Origin: a virus
Length of the DNA stretch: 41,739 bases
Virus record (IMG/VR): IMGVR_UViG_3300034170_000016
Coordinates: 1 to 41,739 of that record
Direction: 5' to 3' (one strand)
Shown here in pieces: positions 1 to 40,915 of this stretch. The position numbers were made by a program, and so were the translations under genes. Each line of letters begins with the position of its first letter. Position 1 is the first letter of the stretch. The notes below the pieces were generated by a model. That model searched no databases and was not told where the DNA came from. It saw only the letters and a program-made list of their open reading frames with translations.

Positions 1-54
1 TTCGTCGGTGCATTGGTGGCCGGCGATACAGTAGGTCATGAGTAGGTAAAACAT
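1..54 (-). CDS. Partial CDS, start of an unknown small protein
   Basis: An ATG at 54-52 overlaps the stop codon of the upstream 56-aa gene (TGATG). The reading frame runs off the left edge after 18 codons (MFYLLMTYCIAGHQCTDE). The visible N-terminus is hydrophobic and carries two cysteines and a histidine. The ribosome-binding site is the same ACGGAG that precedes the neighbouring gene. Nothing more can be said without the rest of the gene. Confidence 0.6.
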   Translation of the reverse strand, partial: MFYLLMTYCIAGHQCTDE

Positions 55-68
55 CACAGTAACTCCGT
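52..68 (-). repeat. Junction direct repeat, copy 2 (17 bp)
   Basis: The sequence catcacagtaactccgt is identical to 222-238. On the minus strand it contains a ribosome-binding site (ACGGAG), the stop of the upstream gene and the ATG of the next. Both copies face the same way and flank the 56-aa membrane gene. Confidence 0.85.
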
Positions 69-224
69 AGCGATAAGAATCGATGTAACGCCGAGCAGCG
101 TGACGAACTGCACAACAAGAAGCGCATAAGCGTAGCTAATGCGCTTGCCTGCGATAGTCGGCCATATGACCCTGACGGCTTCGGCTTCAAGTAGCAGTAC
201 TGCAACCAGAAGCGCATACCGCAT
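54..224 (-). CDS. Small two-segment membrane protein (56 aa)
   Basis: This short ORF encodes 56 residues. It starts with a hydrophobic stretch (residues 4-13), has a short polar turn with Arg and Lys, and then a second hydrophobic helix (about residues 31-52). That pattern fits a small inner-membrane hairpin protein. An ACGGAG ribosome-binding site lies 9-10 bases upstream of the ATG, and the start overlaps the TGA of the 196-aa gene as TGATG, so translation is probably coupled. The last codons (ThrGluLeuLeu-stop) are identical to those of the upstream gene because the junction sequence is duplicated. I do not recognise a family; holin-like and superinfection-type roles are possible but unsupported. 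Confidence 0.7.
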   Translation of the reverse strand: MRYALLVAVLLLEAEAVRVIWPTIAGKRISYAYALLVVQFVTLLGVTSILIATELL

Positions 225-238
225 CACAGTAACTCCGT
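222..238 (-). repeat. Junction direct repeat, copy 1 (17 bp)
   Basis: Identical to 52-68. It spans the end of the CsrA-like gene and the start of the 56-aa gene. Recombination between the copies would remove the 56-aa gene cleanly and leave a working stop/start junction. Confidence 0.85.
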
Positions 239-814
239 GCGAACGATTTTAATTGAGCGGTCGGCTTCGAAATGCAACCGAGCCTGCAGACCTTTGATCT
301 GTGCAACGCGGATGCTTACAGTGCCTTCTGGCGTACCAACGTCGACACTGCTATCAAGCATTACGTTTTTCGATCCCGAGCGCAGCCCAGCGTATTCGAA
401 GCCGAGCGCAATACTGTCAGCACGCACCTTGAGCACAGTGACCACGGTATCGTTGCCGATGCGGACAGACTCATATTGGCGCCGGGTCAACGACAAGTGA
501 CCGAGTTCGGCATTGAGCGCTTTGGTGGCGTACACGTTTTCGATGCCCAGGCGGCGCGCGATGTCTTCGACGCTGCTGGCGGCTACTACGTCGACTGCAG
601 GCTTTGCCCACTCAAAGCTGTACTCTTTCGGCTCAGTCATTGGGCGCCCAAGAAATTCCCCGTCTTTCAGCAAAGCGTCGTGAACCTCGGTACCAATTTG
701 CGCGGCAGTCTTGCGAGGGCTGATGAACACTTGGGCTTCTTGCGCAGGACTCTGCAGCATGCGCAAACCTTCCGCGTACACTTTGGTTTGCTTGTTCGGT
801 TCGTCGTTGTTCAT
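224..814 (-). CDS. CsrA/RsmA-like protein with two tandem half-domains (196 aa)
   Basis: The N-terminal 105 residues are unrecognised. Residues 107-144 read like a CsrA monomer: LSLTRR (107-112), then ESVRIG (115-120), VVTVL (124-128) and a hydrophobic strand ending LGFEYAG. Residues 155-196 repeat the later CsrA strands: SVDVG, TVSIRVAQIKG (165-175), ARLHFEA (178-184) and IKIVRTEL (188-195). In CsrA dimers the RNA site is built from strand 1 of one chain (LTRR) and strand 5 of the other (V-x-R-E-E). Here the first half keeps LTRR and the second keeps VRTE, so the chain may fold as a pseudo-dimer with one RNA site. This is inference; the resemblance is by eye. The start has an ACGGAG site (leader ACGGAGTACCGCACC), and the ATG overlaps the stop of the upstream 48-aa gene. 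Confidence 0.6.
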   Translation of the reverse strand: MNNDEPNKQTKVYAEGLRMLQSPAQEAQVFISPRKTAAQIGTEVHDALLKDGEFLGRPMTEPKEYSFEWAKPAVDVVAASSVEDIARRLGIENVYATKALNAELGHLSLTRRQYESVRIGNDTVVTVLKVRADSIALGFEYAGLRSGSKNVMLDSSVDVGTPEGTVSIRVAQIKGLQARLHFEADRSIKIVRTELL

Positions 815-957
815 GGTGCGGTACTCCGTGTGATGCAGGCCAGCTTGAGCTGGCTGGATGGTTTGGCGCAGTGCTCGGCAACTGCTGCGGTTTCGATGCT
901 GCGGCGGTACTGGTCAACGCTCAGTAGCACCAGTATTGCGAGGAACAGGTATTTCAT
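811..957 (-). CDS. Small membrane/secreted protein (48 aa)
   Basis: A 48-residue ORF beginning MKYLFLAILVLLSVD: a hydrophobic N-terminal helix (residues 3-14) followed by a short polar tail with two cysteines (30 and 41). It is the first gene after the promoter at 991-1019 and has a CACGGAG ribosome-binding site 11 bases before the ATG. Its TGA overlaps the ATG of the CsrA-like gene (ATGA), which supports it being translated. The helix could be a signal anchor or an uncleaved signal peptide. There is no lipobox. Function unknown. Confidence 0.7.
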   Translation of the reverse strand: MKYLFLAILVLLSVDQYRRSIETAAVAEHCAKPSSQLKLACITRSTAP

Positions 958-1919: not shown

Positions 1920-2689
1920 GGTGCGCCGTCCATGAAGTACATTGCTGCCTCGTGGCTGATAACGCCCTGCTCTGCAAGCAAGCATATGCCAAAGTGCAGT
2001 TTGCGGATGTGCTCTTGCAGTTGCGCAACGGTTGGCGGGGTTTCAACCTCAACGAACCCAGGTGCCAGGTCTGCGGCGGTTGGCGGGGTAGCGCCCAGTT
2101 TGCTATGGCACGTAGCGTGACCGGCGCAGCAGAAATCACCAGGCAGGGCAGCGGCAGGGCAGTCAAACACATTGCACTTGGGTGCTGCTGCAAAGCTCAC
2201 CGGACCGCCGTCGGGCTGACTGTGTGCGTTGCAATATTTTGAGTGTTTCGTTTTCGGCGCACCGCAGCACTTCACCGCGCATGGTGCTGGTGCTGGTGCT
2301 GGTGCTGGTGCTGGTGCTGGTGCTGGTGCTGGTGCTGGTGCTGGTGCTGGTGCTGGTGCTGGTGCTGGTGCTGGTGCTGGTTCGTCGTTCTCAATGGTCG
2401 GCGCGTGGAAGTCACCAGATACCCAGCCAGCAGGCAGCGCGGGGGCAACGGTGCAGTACTCGGCAGCACGCTCTAATATTTCGTCCTCGTAGGGTTCGCA
2501 ATGCACACTTAGCATAGGCGTGATCCACGGCACCATTACGCCAATATGCTTGCGTTGGATCACGCCGTTTTCTACAGTGGGTTTGAACCTGCGTAAGCGA
2601 ACCCTGTTACCCCCTGCGTCGTAGGTTGCCCAGTGGTAAGCGTCGCCAGCGCCATCAAACACAGCTTGCGTCAATACTCGGTTCGTCAT
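1916..2689 (-). CDS. Cys-rich protein with long Ala-Pro linker (257 aa)
   Basis: The protein has three parts. Residues 1-100 form a globular-looking N-terminus (MTNRVLTQAVFDG...). Next comes an uninterrupted Ala-Pro stretch coded by 16 perfect GGTGCT repeats (plus-strand view). The C-terminal part has cysteine/histidine clusters (CCGAP...KYCNAH, CNVFDCPAA...FCCAGH) that suggest one or two zinc sites, followed by an acidic tail. Ala-Pro linkers are stiff spacers that hold domains apart. The start overlaps the helicase stop (ACATGAC), so it is translated with the helicase. I do not recognise the family. It may tether the helicase or VRR nuclease to DNA or a partner, but this is only suggested by position. 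Confidence 0.7.
   Translation of the reverse strand: MTNRVLTQAVFDGAGDAYHWATYDAGGNRVRLRRFKPTVENGVIQRKHIGVMVPWITPMLSVHCEPYEDEILERAAEYCTVAPALPAGWVSGDFHAPTIENDEPAPAPAPAPAPAPAPAPAPAPAPAPAPAPAPAPCAVKCCGAPKTKHSKYCNAHSQPDGGPVSFAAAPKCNVFDCPAAALPGDFCCAGHATCHSKLGATPPTAADLAPGFVEVETPPTVAQLQEHIRKLHFGICLLAEQGVISHEAAMYFMDGAP
2283..2378. repeat. Hexanucleotide microsatellite (GGTGCT)16
   Basis: Sixteen perfect tandem GGTGCT units inside the gene at 1916-2689, read on the coding strand as AGCACC and translated as Ala-Pro repeats. Because the unit is 6 bp, slippage changes linker length without breaking the frame. Confidence 0.95.
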
Positions 2690-9685: not shown

Positions 9686-9718
9686 GGCCCCATACCAACC
9701 AGCACGGAGCAAGACGAG

Positions 9719-9907
9719 ATGGTTAGCATCTACAGTACCAACCAGGGCGCTAAAGTGGTTTTTGAAATGGGCAACCGTAAAGCCATTCAAGCCAATGGCG
9801 CGTTCACAGAGTACTTTGTACGCGATAACGCAGAGTCCGAATGGCGCAGCGCTTACGCTGTATTTGCCGACGCTTTCATTGCCAAAGTGAAAGCAGAGGT
9901 CAGGTAA
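9719..9907 (+). CDS. Hypothetical protein (62 aa)
   Basis: A 62-residue soluble protein beginning MVSIYSTNQG. It is predicted to be a small alpha/beta fold: two short strands (KVVFEM, TEYFVRD) followed by an amphipathic helix rich in Ala (YAVFADAFIAKVKAEV). It has its own motif-bearing promoter P3, a CACGGAG ribosome-binding site and a terminator after it, so it forms a single-gene transcription unit. Strong dedicated expression signals for such a small protein suggest an early host-takeover or regulatory factor. The family is not recognised. Confidence 0.8.
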   Translation: MVSIYSTNQGAKVVFEMGNRKAIQANGAFTEYFVRDNAESEWRSAYAVFADAFIAKVKAEVR

Positions 9908-20374: not shown

Positions 20375-20826
20375 ACGTTGGCCCGAGTGTAGGACAGGTT
20401 AGAGAACGCGAAGCTGTAGGTGCTCGACTTGAAGCGACCTGCGCTGCTCGGCGAACGTACCGGCATACCGGCCAACAGCTTGCCGGTGTCAAAGGTGGCA
20501 GTGGACCCATCGGGGTAGCTGACCACGGCGGTAACTTCGTCGCCTACCGACTTCTTGCCGTTGGCTGGGCGGTTGGCGTCAAGCGCGATGTTCATGTTGC
20601 GGTCGTCTTCGCTGCCCGGGATCAGCGCCATTTTAGGCAGCAGAGGCTTGGGACTAGACCACGTAACGAGCACGCCGTTGAGGTTCATTGCGGCCTCTGC
20701 AATGACGACCTCGGGCACGTCGAACGGGTCAGCGTCGTCGGCGAACTGGGTGACGGTAAAGCCGTTCGGGAACGTCTTGTCGAAGATGAATCGAATGCTG
20801 ATGCCAGAGCCTGAAATGTCAGTCAT
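20371..20826 (-). CDS. Tail tube protein (151 aa)
   Basis: A 151-residue beta-rich protein in the tube position, directly after the sheath. It begins MTDISGSGISIRFIFDKTFPNGFTV and has FDVPEVVIAEAAMNLNG and SPKPLLPKMALIPGSEDD, features I associate with the DUF3277 family of contractile-tail tubes. Many copies stack as hexameric rings inside the sheath. An ACGGAG site with the leader ACGGAGTACCACCC precedes the ATG; the same leader type occurs before 814 and 40853. Confidence 0.8.
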   Translation of the reverse strand: MTDISGSGISIRFIFDKTFPNGFTVTQFADDADPFDVPEVVIAEAAMNLNGVLVTWSSPKPLLPKMALIPGSEDDRNMNIALDANRPANGKKSVGDEVTAVVSYPDGSTATFDTGKLLAGMPVRSPSSAGRFKSSTYSFAFSNLSYTRANV

Positions 20827-20841
20827 GGGTGGTACTCCGTA

Positions 20842-22356
20842 TTAAACGAGGTTGTGAGAGCCGACGATTTTGCGCACAACGTCGTTTTTGGCGTAGGCAA
20901 CAGTGTACAGCGCGACATACTCGGTGGTGCCACTCGGGCCTGTTTCCTCAACGATCTGCACGTCCGCCCAGTAGCCGTTGCTCTGCACGTCGCGCCATGC
21001 GTCGGGGTCACCAGTCAATTGCGTTACCGCGAGCTGCTGCAGTGTGGTCAATTGTTTGCCGACGCGGATCACACCGTTGCGCTTGGCCTGCACGCATTTG
21101 TTGGTGAGCACGCCCAGCACTGCTGCGCGGCCGTCGTCGTCGTTGCTGATCGAGCCAATAGCGATCAGCAGATTGATATAGTCAGCTTGCAGCGCCGATT
21201 TAAACCACTGTTCGTTAATGTGGACGTTCATGTCCAGCGGCGCGGAGCTAGGCCCGCACAACACACCACGTTGGAAGAACGCCAGGGATGTGCCAGCGCT
21301 TTGCGTCTCGCCGTAGTAGTTCACGCGCGCAGGGTCCAACACGTCGGCCAAGTCGTCGCCGCTAACGTCGAACGGGGCAGTGTACAAGCCTTGGCGGAAC
21401 ATGAAGTTAACGACCGCATTGCGGCGGTTGAAGTTGATTGCGGCAGCGATGGCCTGCGGTAATGCTTCCTTGAATTCCATCGGCTTGACGTTGAGCACCA
21501 GGCCCACGGACGCAATGCCCAGCAGCGCCTCACTGTGCGACGCGAAGTTGGCCATGTTGACGACGTGCAGGAACATGTATTTGACGTTGAGACTGGCGTT
21601 GTACTGGGCCACTGACAGCGCGTCGGGGAGCGACACAGGCACCTCATACGTGAAGCTGCCGAAGGAATCGGTGATTTTCTCTGCAGCGCGCAGAGCTTCG
21701 AGCGGCGATTGGGCAACGGAGCCAGGCGACAGCACTGCGTCGAACGCGCGCCAGCCGAACAGCGTAGCAATATCGTTGGTTGGGTCAACCGTGACCGGGA
21801 ACGCAATAGACGCGTTTTCAGCCACCGAGCTGACGAAGTTGAACGCGGATGCCTGGGCGTCGTAGGTCACCAGCACGCTCACAAACTGCGGCATTGCTAC
21901 GCCACGGATTGCAGTTTGCACGAGGCTGGCAACGTCGGCGAAGGTGGTGGCAGTAGCCAGGCTGAAACCTGGGGTAGTCGCGGTCACGCCTTCGATGGTG
22001 ATGGTGGCCACGGCTGCGGTCACTGCTTGCAGCGCAGCCAGGTCAAACGTGCGCTTTGGCCCATATACGCGCGCAGGGCGGGCAACGTTGGCAAACGGAG
22101 CCAGCAACACCTTGGCGGCTTTGCTGGCTGGCGCGGGGCTGACGTACCCGAAGTACTGGGTGCCGTATGCAGCCTGCACACTGGCAGCGCCGAAGGTGTC
22201 AATGATCGACGAAGCGTCACCGGCCTGCCCAATCGCACCTACTGGCAACTTGGGGTCAGTGATGAAGCGAAGGCCAACAAGCTCGCGTTGAGCTGCTGCC
22301 GCCGCGCCGATAACGCCGCTGGTTGCGTCGACGTAACGTGAAATACTGATGGGCAT
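20842..22356 (-). CDS. Tail sheath protein, DUF3383 family (504 aa)
   Basis: The contractile sheath. Family-typical features are the N-terminal ISRYVDATSGVIGAAAAAQREL, the internal NSASIAFPVTV-like segment, the block DALSVAQYNASLNVKYMFLHVVNMA and the C-terminal conserved stretch WRDVQSNGYWADVQIVEE near residues 455-472. Sheath subunits contract to drive the tube through the envelope. It precedes the tube gene and has a GAGGA ribosome-binding site. Length agrees with DUF3383 sheaths of about 500 residues. Confidence 0.9.
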   Translation of the reverse strand: MPISISRYVDATSGVIGAAAAAQRELVGLRFITDPKLPVGAIGQAGDASSIIDTFGAASVQAAYGTQYFGYVSPAPASKAAKVLLAPFANVARPARVYGPKRTFDLAALQAVTAAVATITIEGVTATTPGFSLATATTFADVASLVQTAIRGVAMPQFVSVLVTYDAQASAFNFVSSVAENASIAFPVTVDPTNDIATLFGWRAFDAVLSPGSVAQSPLEALRAAEKITDSFGSFTYEVPVSLPDALSVAQYNASLNVKYMFLHVVNMANFASHSEALLGIASVGLVLNVKPMEFKEALPQAIAAAINFNRRNAVVNFMFRQGLYTAPFDVSGDDLADVLDPARVNYYGETQSAGTSLAFFQRGVLCGPSSAPLDMNVHINEQWFKSALQADYINLLIAIGSISNDDDGRAAVLGVLTNKCVQAKRNGVIRVGKQLTTLQQLAVTQLTGDPDAWRDVQSNGYWADVQIVEETGPSGTTEYVALYTVAYAKNDVVRKIVGSHNLV

Positions 22357-22366
22357 GGTAAGTCCT

Positions 22367-22906
22367 CTAGACTCTCATAAATCGTGATTCGACGCGGCTT
22401 GCGGCGGTCGACTGTTGGATTATGCTTCGCTCGTGCGTGCAGGTAAAGTCAAAGGACGGAACCTGTTCGAAATGGTCACGGTCATTGCGCATATAGGGTT
22501 TGCGGATATCGGTCACGCGTTCCATGAATACCCCCTGGGCGCGCAGCAGTTTGCGGAACCCTTGGGAGTTGATCAGCATTGCTGCCACCCGCGTAATGGT
22601 CGCCGCCGTCGGGCCTGTTACAGCGTCAGGTGGCGTCTCGTACAACCCCTGCACCTGAAACCCACTGCGGTACATCTGCACTTCTTTGCGCAGCATGACG
22701 CCCGTGGTGCGGTCATAGATGGCCTTGCGCCCCTGCCACCCATACAGGTTCTCGGGCAGCTCAAAGAAGTACAGCACAGGCCCAGCCTCACGCCCCTGGG
22801 GGGTCGGTTGGTACTCGGCCGTTACATGCCAGTCGCCGTACCCTTGCGCAGCCAACAGCGTGATCAGGCTGGAGCGGACCAGGATCTGCAGTTCGAGTTC
22901 ATCCAT
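22367..22906 (-). CDS. Tail terminator / neck protein, LIC_12616-like (179 aa)
   Basis: Resembles the phage neck terminator family (gp12-like, LIC_12616): DELELQILVRSSLITLLAAQGYG at the start, QPTPQGREAGPVLYFFELPE in the middle, and a C-terminal region with DIRKPYMRNDRDHFEQVPSFDF. The family caps the sheath/tube at the neck side. It lies between the neck gene and the sheath gene, as expected. The ATG overlaps the stop of the upstream 124-aa gene by eight bases. Confidence 0.75.
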   Translation of the reverse strand: MDELELQILVRSSLITLLAAQGYGDWHVTAEYQPTPQGREAGPVLYFFELPENLYGWQGRKAIYDRTTGVMLRKEVQMYRSGFQVQGLYETPPDAVTGPTAATITRVAAMLINSQGFRKLLRAQGVFMERVTDIRKPYMRNDRDHFEQVPSFDFTCTHERSIIQQSTAASRVESRFMRV

Positions 22907-23273
22907 TTTCCGGCCCCACGTCGATAAAGTATGCCGCCTGCCACCCGTCTACCGTCTGCCAATTGTTCTCACCGACGGTTTCGTACTTGCGCCCGTCGCG
23001 GTAGCACACGTCAACGCCCGTGCCGCGCTTCAAGTTACGCACGGGCTCGGTGGTATAAAAGGTGTAGTAGTCCTTGGTTGCGTCAAAGCCAAGCTCGGCG
23101 TAACGCTTGGTTTCCGTGGGTTGCCACGATCCCTCGACTGGAACGCCGGCCGCGAACACGTCCACGAACTTGCCCAAGGCGTTCGTATCTCGCCGCAACC
23201 ACTTGTGGAGCACGATTTGTTGCGGCGAGATAACGCCAAGCGCCATGCTTAGCAGGTTCATTCCTGGGATCAT
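22899..23273 (-). CDS. Neck / head-closure protein (124 aa)
   Basis: A 124-residue beta-rich protein in the position of a collar or head-closure protein: between the HK97-gp10-like tail-completion gene and the tail terminator. It contains QQIVLHKWLRR and DVFAAGVPVEGSWQPTETK, then YYTFYTTEPVRN. Pam3-type phages encode a collar protein of similar length and order. The ATG overlaps the upstream stop (GGATGATC). Assignment is mainly from order. Confidence 0.6.
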   Translation of the reverse strand: MIPGMNLLSMALGVISPQQIVLHKWLRRDTNALGKFVDVFAAGVPVEGSWQPTETKRYAELGFDATKDYYTFYTTEPVRNLKRGTGVDVCYRDGRKYETVGENNWQTVDGWQAAYFIDVGPENG

Positions 23274-34463: not shown

Positions 34464-37085
34464 CTACTGCCCCAGCAACCGCAACTGCTGCTCTTTCTTG
34501 CTCATGTCCAGCAGCATGCGGATGCCCTCGTTGCTTGCGTTGCCCAGCTCCCCACGCTTCCACCAAATGCGATGCGTCTTCCCGTCCCACTTGAGCACTG
34601 TGTCCATCTGCGAGAAACCCATGCGACTCAACATGTGGTTGAGCGTGTTCGTCTTCGGTATCTCGATCCCGTCCTGCACACAGACGGTCTTCATAGCCGC
34701 TGTCAGCGCGCTGGAGCTTAAAACGGACGGATGTACACCCACGGCCCCGCCTTCGATAATTTGACGCGCCACGGCCTCAGCAGCGTCTTCGCCGCTGCTG
34801 CGCATTTCGATCTTCTCGGCAGTATGTGGTGCACCAGCGTTTGGACGAAATGCTTCGCTGACTTGATACTCGGTGAGGAATTTGCGCCACTCGCCGCGCT
34901 GCGCATTCATGCTGGCAAAGATCAAATCAAAATGCGCAACAAGTTGTTCGGCTGACATGCCCAACGCGCTGCGTAATGACTGGATGCTGCTATAGGGGGA
35001 AAAGATCACCCACCAGCGACGGTCGCTGTCTTCAAGCGGCACCGCGTCCACAAAGTTCGTGAAGGCAAGATAGTTGGTAACGTTTACGATGTTGCGTGCA
35101 AAGGTCGTACCCTTCCGGTTGATAGACAGCCGGTCGTTACTGATCGGCTCCTTGAGGTTGTTGGCCACGCTGTAACGCTTGCGCCCGGTGATCATGATTT
35201 CCTCAAAGCCTGTGACGCACGTACCTTCTGCCCAGTCGTTAAAGTCAGCGCACAGCAGCGCCGGCCCAATACTGCCCACGTTGGTGTCACCCATGGCAGC
35301 ACGAAGCGCACTCACCAGCATTGACTTGCCGTCACCCTGGCAACCTTTGAGCAGTGGCGCATAACGCACCTTGCGCCCGGGGTTCTGCACGCACCAGGCC
35401 AGGAAGTCGATAAAGTTGGTGTACACCTCGGGCCGGTTGCCGCAGAACGCCTGGATGTGACGTAGGAAGGCGTTAATGCCGTCCAGGCCAGGTTGGGTGT
35501 AGTGCTGGGCAACCTCGGGCAAGTTGGTCGGGCTGTAGGTGTTAGCCAGCCACCGTGCCTCTTGGCGGAACACGGGCTGCTCCCCGGGCATGTACATGCT
35601 GTCTGTCACGGTAGCAACGTTCCAACGTTCCAGGCACCACTTGGCTGCGTCCTCGCGATCACCGTTCGGGCGCTGGGGCATCATGCGGTTGTACTGGGCA
35701 TTGAACCCCACACGCGAAAGCATGCTAGCCGACTTGAGGTCGAAGAACGCATCGGCCGCGAGCACGTACACATGCTGGTTGGCCCACTCGGGCACCATCG
35801 GCGCGTCGTCGGCTTCCACCTTGCGCACCCGTACCATTTCCCGGCAATCGCTGATAGACACGGGGAACAGCCATTCCTTGAAGCGCGTGCGGATCGCACT
35901 GGCCAGGAAGTCGCGGTCAAGGGTTTCAATGCTGGCGTCGTGCGCGATTGCCGGTATCACCTCGTTGCGCATCTGCGCGTCGTCCTCGGCTTCGTTGATC
36001 AACTGCAGGTACTGGGCGCGGGTGGTCGATGCCTGGATGGTGGTGGCGACTTGCAGCACCTGTTGCACGGGTGCGTCCTGCAGTACGTTGGATTGGCGCG
36101 GGAGCATTTCGCGGATTGATAGCTGCAGCCACGTTTCGTTCCCCCGGCGCTCGTACCACTTCGGCCGCACAAGGGACGACTGCAGCATGAGGCGTTCAAT
36201 ACGTGCCGCGTCGCACCCAGTCCAGAACGCAAGCTGTGCGATCAACGCTGCGTCGGCTTCGGATTCGCCATACGGCGCGCCCTTGGTCCCGGTGTCGGTG
36301 TACGTCTTGGCCAACACGGCTACGTTGCGGGTCCACAGGTCAGCGAACGATGCTGAGCCGGTAAGCGCACTTCGACCGCCACGACTTGCCATGGCGCGGC
36401 GGATCAACTCACCGTCGTCGGTGGGGCCGTTCCAGTCGGCGCGCGGACCGTCACCCAGGTGCGTGCCTGGCGCGAGCGCGTCGCGGGGGAAGATGTCCAG
36501 CACCATGCGTTGAACCGCAAGCGTGTGGTCAGTATCGGCGTTGCCCCAGGCTTGGCCAGTGAGCCCCAGGCACGCACCGCGCTTCCCGCTGTAGAACTCC
36601 CATTTGTTACCAGGGTTCGCGGCGAGCCATTCGCGCGTTGGGCGCGTGCGGTGTTCTTCTGGCACCTGACCACGGCCAAAGAAGTGCAAGCCGCGACCGC
36701 TGGAACTGTACTCACAGAACGCACCCGGCAGCTCGTTGTAGAACTTGACGGCCTGGGCGGTCCAAGTGGTCTGGTCTTCGCTCACGCACTCGTCACCGTC
36801 GAGGAACCAGTAACCACAGCCCTCGGTGAACATGAACCCCAGCGCGTACTTGGCGCCGTCAAATGCGGCTTGGTGCAGTGCCAGGTCCATGACGGCCTGA
36901 TCGTATGTGCGCCAGGCTTCGGGCACCTGGGCGTCCATGCCAGCTATGCGGCCGGTTTCAGGATCAAGACGGCGATCAGGCCAGATGGGCACTTTGTGGT
37001 ATTTGCGTTCGGCGGCAACCCAAGTCAGGCGCCATACGAACCATTGAGGGGCGGCGGTCATACCCGCCAGTGCTGTTCTAAGCAT
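34464..37085 (-). CDS. PrimPol-SF3 helicase replication protein (873 aa)
   Basis: A fused primase-polymerase/helicase of the NrS-1/D5 type. N-terminal PrimPol: PQWFVWRL (13-20), metal-binding FLDGDE (94-99; Asp96, Asp98) and SSSGRGLHFFG (127-137), the S-x-H-type nucleotide motif. A helical bundle follows (SEADAALIAQLAFWTGC, then SLVRPKWYERRG), as in NrS-1-like proteins. The C-terminal SF3 helicase has Walker A GCQGDGKS (581-588), VTGFEEI and DSDRRWWVI with a likely arginine finger. It may start DNA synthesis for the family B polymerase. The start is uncertain: 37085 or 37061 (MTAAPQWF), neither with a strong site. It ends beside the iteron region. Confidence 0.85.
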   Translation of the reverse strand: MLRTALAGMTAAPQWFVWRLTWVAAERKYHKVPIWPDRRLDPETGRIAGMDAQVPEAWRTYDQAVMDLALHQAAFDGAKYALGFMFTEGCGYWFLDGDECVSEDQTTWTAQAVKFYNELPGAFCEYSSSGRGLHFFGRGQVPEEHRTRPTREWLAANPGNKWEFYSGKRGACLGLTGQAWGNADTDHTLAVQRMVLDIFPRDALAPGTHLGDGPRADWNGPTDDGELIRRAMASRGGRSALTGSASFADLWTRNVAVLAKTYTDTGTKGAPYGESEADAALIAQLAFWTGCDAARIERLMLQSSLVRPKWYERRGNETWLQLSIREMLPRQSNVLQDAPVQQVLQVATTIQASTTRAQYLQLINEAEDDAQMRNEVIPAIAHDASIETLDRDFLASAIRTRFKEWLFPVSISDCREMVRVRKVEADDAPMVPEWANQHVYVLAADAFFDLKSASMLSRVGFNAQYNRMMPQRPNGDREDAAKWCLERWNVATVTDSMYMPGEQPVFRQEARWLANTYSPTNLPEVAQHYTQPGLDGINAFLRHIQAFCGNRPEVYTNFIDFLAWCVQNPGRKVRYAPLLKGCQGDGKSMLVSALRAAMGDTNVGSIGPALLCADFNDWAEGTCVTGFEEIMITGRKRYSVANNLKEPISNDRLSINRKGTTFARNIVNVTNYLAFTNFVDAVPLEDSDRRWWVIFSPYSSIQSLRSALGMSAEQLVAHFDLIFASMNAQRGEWRKFLTEYQVSEAFRPNAGAPHTAEKIEMRSSGEDAAEAVARQIIEGGAVGVHPSVLSSSALTAAMKTVCVQDGIEIPKTNTLNHMLSRMGFSQMDTVLKWDGKTHRIWWKRGELGNASNEGIRMLLDMSKKEQQLRLLGQ

Positions 37086-40201: not shown

Positions 40202-40533
40202 GATTCAACTCCTTCACATTCGATACATGTTTCCCCGACGGCTTTGCACACGCTGCAGCTTTGGGGCTTGCCGATCTTGGCCAGGTGCTTTTGCTTCGGC
40301 ACGAAACCACTCGGCGGTATTGCAACCGGCGTACCGGCGTGGGCGTTGCGGATCAGCGTCAATAGCATTTCCGTCATGTTTTCGAACCCATCGCGCTTGC
40401 ACACCTCTTTGGCCATATTGCTGATGCTGGCCGGCAAAGGGATCACCACGTCAACAACCCCCATTGCGTCGCGCTTGGCCTTCTCGCGCGCTTGGTACGC
40501 TTTCACGTACTCGGCGTTCTTACTGCGTGTCAT
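40198..40533 (-). CDS. RHH-like small DNA-binding protein with Cys motif (111 aa)
   Basis: Residues 1-20 are basic (TRSKNAEYVKAYQAREKAKR). VVDVVIPLPASISNMAKEV (26-44) and GFENMTEMLLTLIRNAH give a strand-helix-helix, the pattern of ribbon-helix-helix (Arc/MetJ-type) proteins. The C-terminus has CSVCKAVGETCIEC (two CxxC pairs), probably a zinc site. The start codon at 40533 overlaps the stop of the upstream gene (GTCATGACA). It may regulate transcription of this accessory block. Confidence 0.6.
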   Translation of the reverse strand: MTRSKNAEYVKAYQAREKAKRDAMGVVDVVIPLPASISNMAKEVCKRDGFENMTEMLLTLIRNAHAGTPVAIPPSGFVPKQKHLAKIGKPQSCSVCKAVGETCIECEGVES

Positions 40534-40853
40534 GACAGAAACCACACGCCAGCAGAAACTGTCATGACAACAGCGAGCACCGCCAGCGCATGCCAGCGCA
40601 GCGAGACCTTTGGCGCCTTGGTGCGAAGCGGCATTGGGCTGGCGGTGCGCATGAACGGCACGCACTCGCTGCATTCCCCTGCTGCGCATACGCCTTGCCC
40701 CCACATAGGCGCCGTCGAAGGTTGCGTGGTGCGCGCACCGTATACGCGCAAGGGTTCATCAGGCTTGGCTACGAATGGGTCACGGTTTGCAGCGAACGCA
40801 CGGCGGCGAAACGCTTCGTCAGATTCGCCGGGTTGCTTGGTCACGATGGTCAT
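40530..40853 (-). CDS. Tail-anchored membrane protein (107 aa)
   Basis: The first 85 residues are soluble, with ESDEAFRRRAFAANRDPFV and the Cys cluster VCAAGECSECV. The last 20 residues (LAVLAVVMTVSAGVWFLS) form one membrane helix, so it is C-terminally anchored. It is the first gene after promoter P7 and uses the leader CACGGAGTACCGCAAC. Its stop overlaps the next start. Family not recognised. Confidence 0.7.
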   Translation of the reverse strand: MTIVTKQPGESDEAFRRRAFAANRDPFVAKPDEPLRVYGARTTQPSTAPMWGQGVCAAGECSECVPFMRTASPMPLRTKAPKVSLRWHALAVLAVVMTVSAGVWFLS

Positions 40854-40886
40854 GTTGCGGTACTCCGTGTTGGTTGCTATGCGCCG

Positions 40887-40915
40887 ATACTATGCCGTTA
40901 TTTACGGTACGTCAA
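40887..40915 (-). promoter_or_regulatory. Promoter with CCGTAAATAACGG in the spacer (P7)
   Basis: TTGACG (40915-40910), 17-bp spacer with CCGTAAATAACGG (40907-40895), TAGTAT (40892-40887), then the leader GCAACCAACACGGAG. The stop TAA of the ParB-like gene lies in the motif. Confidence 0.8.

Follow-up and report, generated by a model that had tools for sequence, protein, structure and literature searches.

A single-chain CsrA/RsmA-like phage protein with one predicted composite RNA site

The question raised by this locus is whether a phage can carry, in a single polypeptide, the fold that the regulator CsrA builds from two. The CsrA dimer comprises ten strands, five per chain. Its RNA surfaces are formed by β1 of one chain paired with β5 of the opposing chain (PMC7652899). 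The stretch of DNA analysed, hereafter the window, is the full 41,739-nt IMG/VR record IMGVR_UViG_3300034170_000016, and the window protein is the product of 224-814 on its minus strand. Tail sheath, baseplate wedge, portal, terminase, primase, helicase and DNA polymerase are encoded in the window, which is accordingly assigned to a contractile-tailed phage. The csrA-like gene is situated downstream in the phage helicase operon, next to two small genes:

54..227, minus strand: downstream small membrane-type protein, overlapping the stop of the csrA-like gene
224..814, minus strand: coding sequence of the single-chain CsrA-like protein (196 aa; ATG at 814, stop at 224-226), identified by its ORF and translation and by two PF02599 stretches
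811..957, minus strand: upstream small ORF (48 aa) of the same operon, whose 3′ end shares ATGA with the start of the csrA-like gene

The ATG at 814 is preceded by the Shine-Dalgarno sequence ACACGGAG. The upstream ORF has no family match and the downstream membrane-type protein no PHROG match; Pseudomonas phage Psp6 likewise encodes a small membrane-type protein immediately 3′ of its csrA, a resemblance in position only. A plus-strand ORF overlapping the gene (272-1030) was dismissed, because the minus strand holds all of the evidence for the CsrA family. Elsewhere in the window, ORF 1916-2689 encodes a 257-aa protein whose two parts are separated by a Pro-Ala tract of ~34 residues, derived from CCAGCA repeats (2280-2383, minus strand).

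The first-pass annotation had described LSLTRR followed by CsrA-like strands, and a second half that repeats the later strands and ends in IKIVRTEL. Profile comparison with the CsrA family, set beforehand as a test of this view, shows that both halves match PF02599 significantly. The window protein matches this family, and no other in Pfam, with an E-value of 7.2e-14 and 51.9 bits (cut-off 27) in two stretches, residues 107-140 and about 164-196. Searched in six frames, the record shows these two places at 30.3 bits (E 1.9e-8) and 25.4 bits (E 6.4e-7), and no further CsrA anywhere in its 41.7 kb. Residues 107-140 correspond to PF02599 positions 2-35, and the C-terminal part (227-322) to positions 17-48. 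Compared with ordinary CsrAs, half 1 reaches z 10-14 over shuffles and half 2 reaches z 5-12, while direct comparison of half 1 with half 2 gives no significant similarity (z -0.4). The observation of LSLTRR with CsrA-like strands after it therefore holds, with PF02599 at 107-140 and β1-β4 modelled; the terminal motif of half 2 is also present, and the word "repeat" applies only by way of CsrA, the halves being dissimilar to one another. The parts of the protein are:

500..814, minus strand: N-terminal extension, residues 1-105, without known relatives and modelled at low confidence
386..499, minus strand: CsrA half 1, residues 106-143, β1 to β4 without β5 (PF02599 match and modelled strands)
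479..496, minus strand: LSLTRR, residues 107-112, equivalents of CsrA L2-R7 and predicted β1 side of the single composite RNA site
353..385, minus strand: middle strand, residues 144-154, in the place of half-1 β5 and half-2 β1 and without either motif (modelled strand 144-152)
227..352, minus strand: CsrA half 2, residues 155-196, β2′ to β5′ (PF02599 match and modelled strands)
230..253, minus strand: IKIVRTEL, residues 188-195, predicted β5 side of the same composite site

The NCBIfam equivalogs TIGR00202 and NF002469 are not reached (40.9 versus 70.1 and 40.0 versus 73 bits). Because the PF02599 match is significant and these equivalog cut-offs are missed, the window protein belongs to the CsrA/RsmA superfamily but lies outside the canonical CsrA equivalogs, as a variant of the CsrA/RsmA family.

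Structure prediction, also set beforehand as a test, gave a CsrA-like fold in which each of the nine strands is confidently predicted. AlphaFold2, supplied with an alignment of only seven sequences, modelled residues 111-190 with block mean pLDDT of 88-96. The strands (105-112, 116-119, 123-130, 134-141, 144-152, 156-161, 164-174, 177-184 and 190-192) follow the order β1-4, one shared middle strand, β2′-5′; there are nine rather than ten because one connecting strand replaces β5 of unit 1 and β1 of unit 2. The model has no helix between the strands of 105-192, and the chain stops one residue past IKIVRTEL, with the C-terminal helix reduced to a three-residue helical turn. The relative L047 (98 aa) is predicted with mean pLDDT 87.5 and pTM 0.78, again as nine strands in identical order. 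Foldseek against the PDB gave probabilities of 0.98-1.00 for chains of CsrA, RsmA and RsmF/RsmN, with some RsmN/RsmE chains lower, and half of L047 superposes on CsrA 5z38_H at 0.8 Å over 45 columns. The corresponding E-values are weak (0.06-0.6), since the PDB chains are half-size units and the model is one chain. In BFVD, 14 viral models resemble L047 at E ≤ 1e-3 (highest TM 0.86); one of these is named "Carbon storage regulator", one is uncharacterized, and the others are nameless.

On the basis of this model, residues 107-190 are predicted to represent a CsrA dimer folded in one chain. The earlier proposal of a pseudo-dimer of two halves with one complete RNA site draws support from the CsrA matches of both halves and from the nine-strand CsrA-like fold. 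The alternative of an ordinary but divergent CsrA carrying an insertion, or of a coincidental match, with no true pseudo-dimer, is highly improbable: the halves are indeed not alike pairwise, and the CsrA of Psp6 (81 aa) is readable as one CsrA plus an insertion, but each half has a CsrA match of its own in the window protein, L067, L078, L047 and L032, and the nine strands are confidently predicted.

Relatives were collected with IKIVRTE-type and other degenerate β5 patterns, with tblastn using relatives, and with an alignment query. Neither exact-peptide searches of viral and genome contigs nor tblastn against phages and plasmids gave close relatives at significant E; the half-2 pattern had no match in genome contigs, and an overly diverse alignment yielded no usable search pattern. 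The family comprises 27 full-length single-chain sequences (the window protein and 26 others), of which 15 are non-redundant at 80% identity. They originate from IMG/VR contigs, for the most part 37-54 kb long, and from the Vibrio phages vB_VpM-pA2SJ1, vB_VpP_1 and D93, the copies in D71, D81 and D82 being identical to that of D93. The shortened member of Psp6, annotated csrA, is counted beside the 27. Nearest to the window protein are L067 (90 aa), L069 and L078 (43-48% identity, E 1e-12 to 1e-15), which have no extension; in L067 and L078 each half alone exceeds the Pfam cut-off. No second CsrA was found in the 12 phage records searched. The CsrA-like proteins of BcepMigl and PTXU04 and a Thioalkalivibrio plasmid CsrA were rejected as members, being ordinary single units, and the long profiles PHROG 5527 and 31572 were rejected as tandem models, as they mostly match one unit at a time. 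We also note a second divergent type of CsrA, a single unit (MLVLSRNPGESIQLFGPEGRLLATITYITLSSTRSIRVGFEAEPDITIVRSEI...) with a longer segment between β1 and β4, which recurs with little change in eight or more viral contigs (L031 at 1349-1582, L034, L035, L039, L040, L041, L043 and L044).

The RNA site can be followed residue by residue. L109, R111, I190, R192 and L195 of the window protein are the counterparts of CsrA L4, R6, V42, R44 and I47, each present once and contributed by different halves. R6, V42 and I47 of CsrA have roles in RNA contact. L4 and R44 are critical RNA-binding residues (PMC7652899). At the equivalents of L4 and R6 in half 1 all 15 non-redundant members have L and R, and at those of V42, R44, E46 and I47 in half 2 they have I, R, E and L, without exception; the invariance of β5 is biased, as most members were found by that motif, while that of β1 is free of this bias, and the Vibrio members, found independently, also keep the β5 motif. 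The columns of the would-be second β1 are variable or degenerate in the same 15 members. As read from the motifs, the second site has neither of them, which leaves exactly one predicted composite RNA site. The recurrence of a one-piece CsrA in many phages, each keeping the parts of exactly one site, suggests a distinct kind of phage regulator.

In L047, the half-2 segment LTKR-VNVGDSLPIGDEV aligns with LTRR-VGETLMIGDEV of E. coli CsrA. Because this LTKR vestige is kept, a tandem duplication followed by loss of unit-1 β5 and decay of unit-2 β1 would account for the present arrangement, and the alignment indicates an origin by tandem fusion of two CsrA units.

Comparison with known proteins places the family more closely. 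E. coli CsrA and Pseudomonas RsmA resemble the window protein in strand order, β1 LTRR, β5 R44 motif and predicted barrel. CsrA, however, is built from two identical ~61-residue chains, each closing with a C-terminal helix, and offers two RNA sites, whereas the window protein is one chain with the motifs of one site, almost no C-terminal helix and a 105-residue N-terminal extension. RsmN/RsmF is homodimeric, and within one unit a helix stands between strands. Such a helix is absent from the window model. RsmN/RsmF of P. aeruginosa (4kji, 4k59), also a rearranged CsrA member and among the best fold matches in the PDB, is still ~65-70 residues long and, unlike the window protein, is no fusion of two units. 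Within the family, Psp6 csrA shares its phage type with the window and ends EIKIVRTELL, with a shortened first half and no extension; the "carbon storage regulator" of Vibrio phage vB_VpP_1 (95 aa) contains both halves, also without N-terminal extension. The Psp6 and vB_VpP_1 members are annotated merely as CsrA or hypothetical. Ordinary phage CsrA/RsmA proteins (RsmM of F116 and phi297, and the Bcep22 group) are phage-borne as well, but are single units of ~60-70 aa and presumed homodimers (PMC7366521, PMC8450108). A CsrA heterodimer engineered to carry R44A at one of its sites (Mercante 2009, cited in PMC7652899) likewise has one working site but is artificial and made of two chains; the window family is a natural, fused, single-site form.

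The extension had earlier been described as without known match, and this is borne out for residues 1-105 in PHROGs, phages and 13 related phage records; a donor gene for it was also sought in related phages and none was found. The AlphaFold2 model places helices at 8-19, 37-50, 82-88 and 94-103, with low pLDDT over most of 1-100. Longer viral proteins with the same single-chain CsrA fold are present in BFVD (A0A7S5VUW4, 201 aa; A0A7S5T677, 177 aa; G8CTD4; A0A2I7RQV3, 160 aa), for which reason extensions like that of the window protein may also have arisen in other viral proteins. A large unrelated extension and the disappearance of one RNA site would suit a barrel that has given up RNA binding for a role as protein-protein scaffold, for example one presenting the N-terminal domain, and CsrA folds do bind proteins such as CesT (PMC5864733). 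We regard this as improbable, because the residues that never vary belong to the remaining RNA site, which predicts that RNA binding has been kept.

We consider it probable that the window protein is an RNA-binding phage member of the CsrA/RsmA fold with two units fused head to tail and one composite RNA site, a monovalent GGA binder. The computational results behind this reading are the homology of both halves, the predicted fold, the loss of one site and the conservation across phages; RNA binding, GGA preference, early function and insulation from the host protein are what we infer. In the proposed mechanism, β5 of unit 1 and the β1 motif of unit 2 would have been lost, with one connecting strand in their stead, and the chain would fold as a pseudo-dimer in which the LTRR strand (half 1) and the R44-type strand (half 2) lie side by side to give a single RNA surface. 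Binding would most likely be to single GGA sites, typically over ribosome-binding sites, and the protein would alter how a restricted group of host or phage mRNAs is translated early in infection. The covalent chain would allow no easy subunit exchange with host RsmA/CsrA, and the one site no bridging of two RNA sites; owing to these two properties the protein would compete with or add to host CsrA as a monovalent GGA binder rather than copy it. A single-site CsrA heterodimer represses glgC incompletely (PMC7652899), so the phage protein should regulate one-site targets or compete with host CsrA.

The incomplete repression of glgC is also in keeping with an antagonist of host RsmA/CsrA, an option that the first-pass annotation had raised beside competition; such a protein would soak up Rsm/Csr sRNAs, cap GGA sites without repression or bind host chains, and thereby shift host physiology or defence. 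The plasmid protein RsmQ heterodimerises with the Rsm proteins of the host and also binds host Rsm sRNAs (PMC9928087). CRISPR-Cas is under repression by RsmA, and RsmA homologues of phages have been proposed as anti-CRISPRs or as acting on host immunity (PMC8450108). Heterodimer formation of the RsmQ kind should, however, be avoided by a pseudo-dimer that is covalent, and the relatives sit in phage replication or early modules, a setting that would suit phage targets as well. An antagonist is, on this evidence, possible but rather unlikely.

The neighbourhoods point to a common setting. In L060 and L061 the csrA-like gene lies a few small ORFs upstream of an exonuclease gene (DUF2800-type, read from the sequence), and in Psp6 csrA lies between polymerase and lysis genes. 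The common setting of the family is the early/replication region, without one constant neighbour. Adjacency to a lysis cassette, true for Psp6, L046 and the Vibrio phages and false for the window, L060 and L061, was dropped as a clue to function. Psp6 is the sequenced phage closest to the window (helicase 51% and DNA polymerase 50% identity). The 873-aa primase-helicase of the window (34464-37085, minus strand) has an NrS-1 polymerase-type domain (PF22763) and DUF5906, and the corresponding region of Psp6 carries two annotated ORFs (20470-22125 and 22095-23012).

A regulator of phage genes only, for instance of its own operon, would act by covering Shine-Dalgarno sequences with CANGGA. Such a core, in the form CACGGAG, is the Shine-Dalgarno sequence of all three consecutive genes at 54-957. 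Against this, ACGGAG is present in 7 copies on one strand and 9 on the other, about the expectation from base composition; the leaders put no GGA in a stable hairpin loop; and the leaders of several relatives have no CANGGA core, those of L046, L047 and L058 having no GGA at all. We consider this restriction to phage genes doubtful. Autoregulation through a GGA hairpin in the gene's own leader found no support, as the GGA lies in no predicted hairpin loop and the CANGGA core is not conserved in relatives. A start region with CACGGAG is common to several small genes of the window (54-260, 805-850, 948-995 and 40530-40890 on the minus strand, 9690-9720 on the plus strand), and three of these genes also have an upstream CCAACCARCACGGAG or a near copy.

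A natural single-chain or one-site CsrA was not found in the freely accessible literature on phage, plasmid and engineered CsrA, the surveys of phage CsrA consulted included. One published survey of phage CsrAs required 30% target coverage by the CsrA model (PMC8450108), a demand that disfavours matches like the window protein. Tentatively, and with less confidence than in the RNA-binding reading itself, we propose that monovalent single-chain CsrAs are widespread in phages, that fusion insulates them from exchange with host chains, and that one-site GGA binding retunes or disarms the host Csr/Rsm system in infection. How far regulation needs both CsrA sites has so far been tested with engineered mutants, and a natural one-site family makes the question directly testable; it would also be a ready-made monomeric GGA-binding tool. 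A single-chain CsrA points to a phage entry into the Csr/Rsm network of the host, through which CRISPR-Cas and other defences are controlled.
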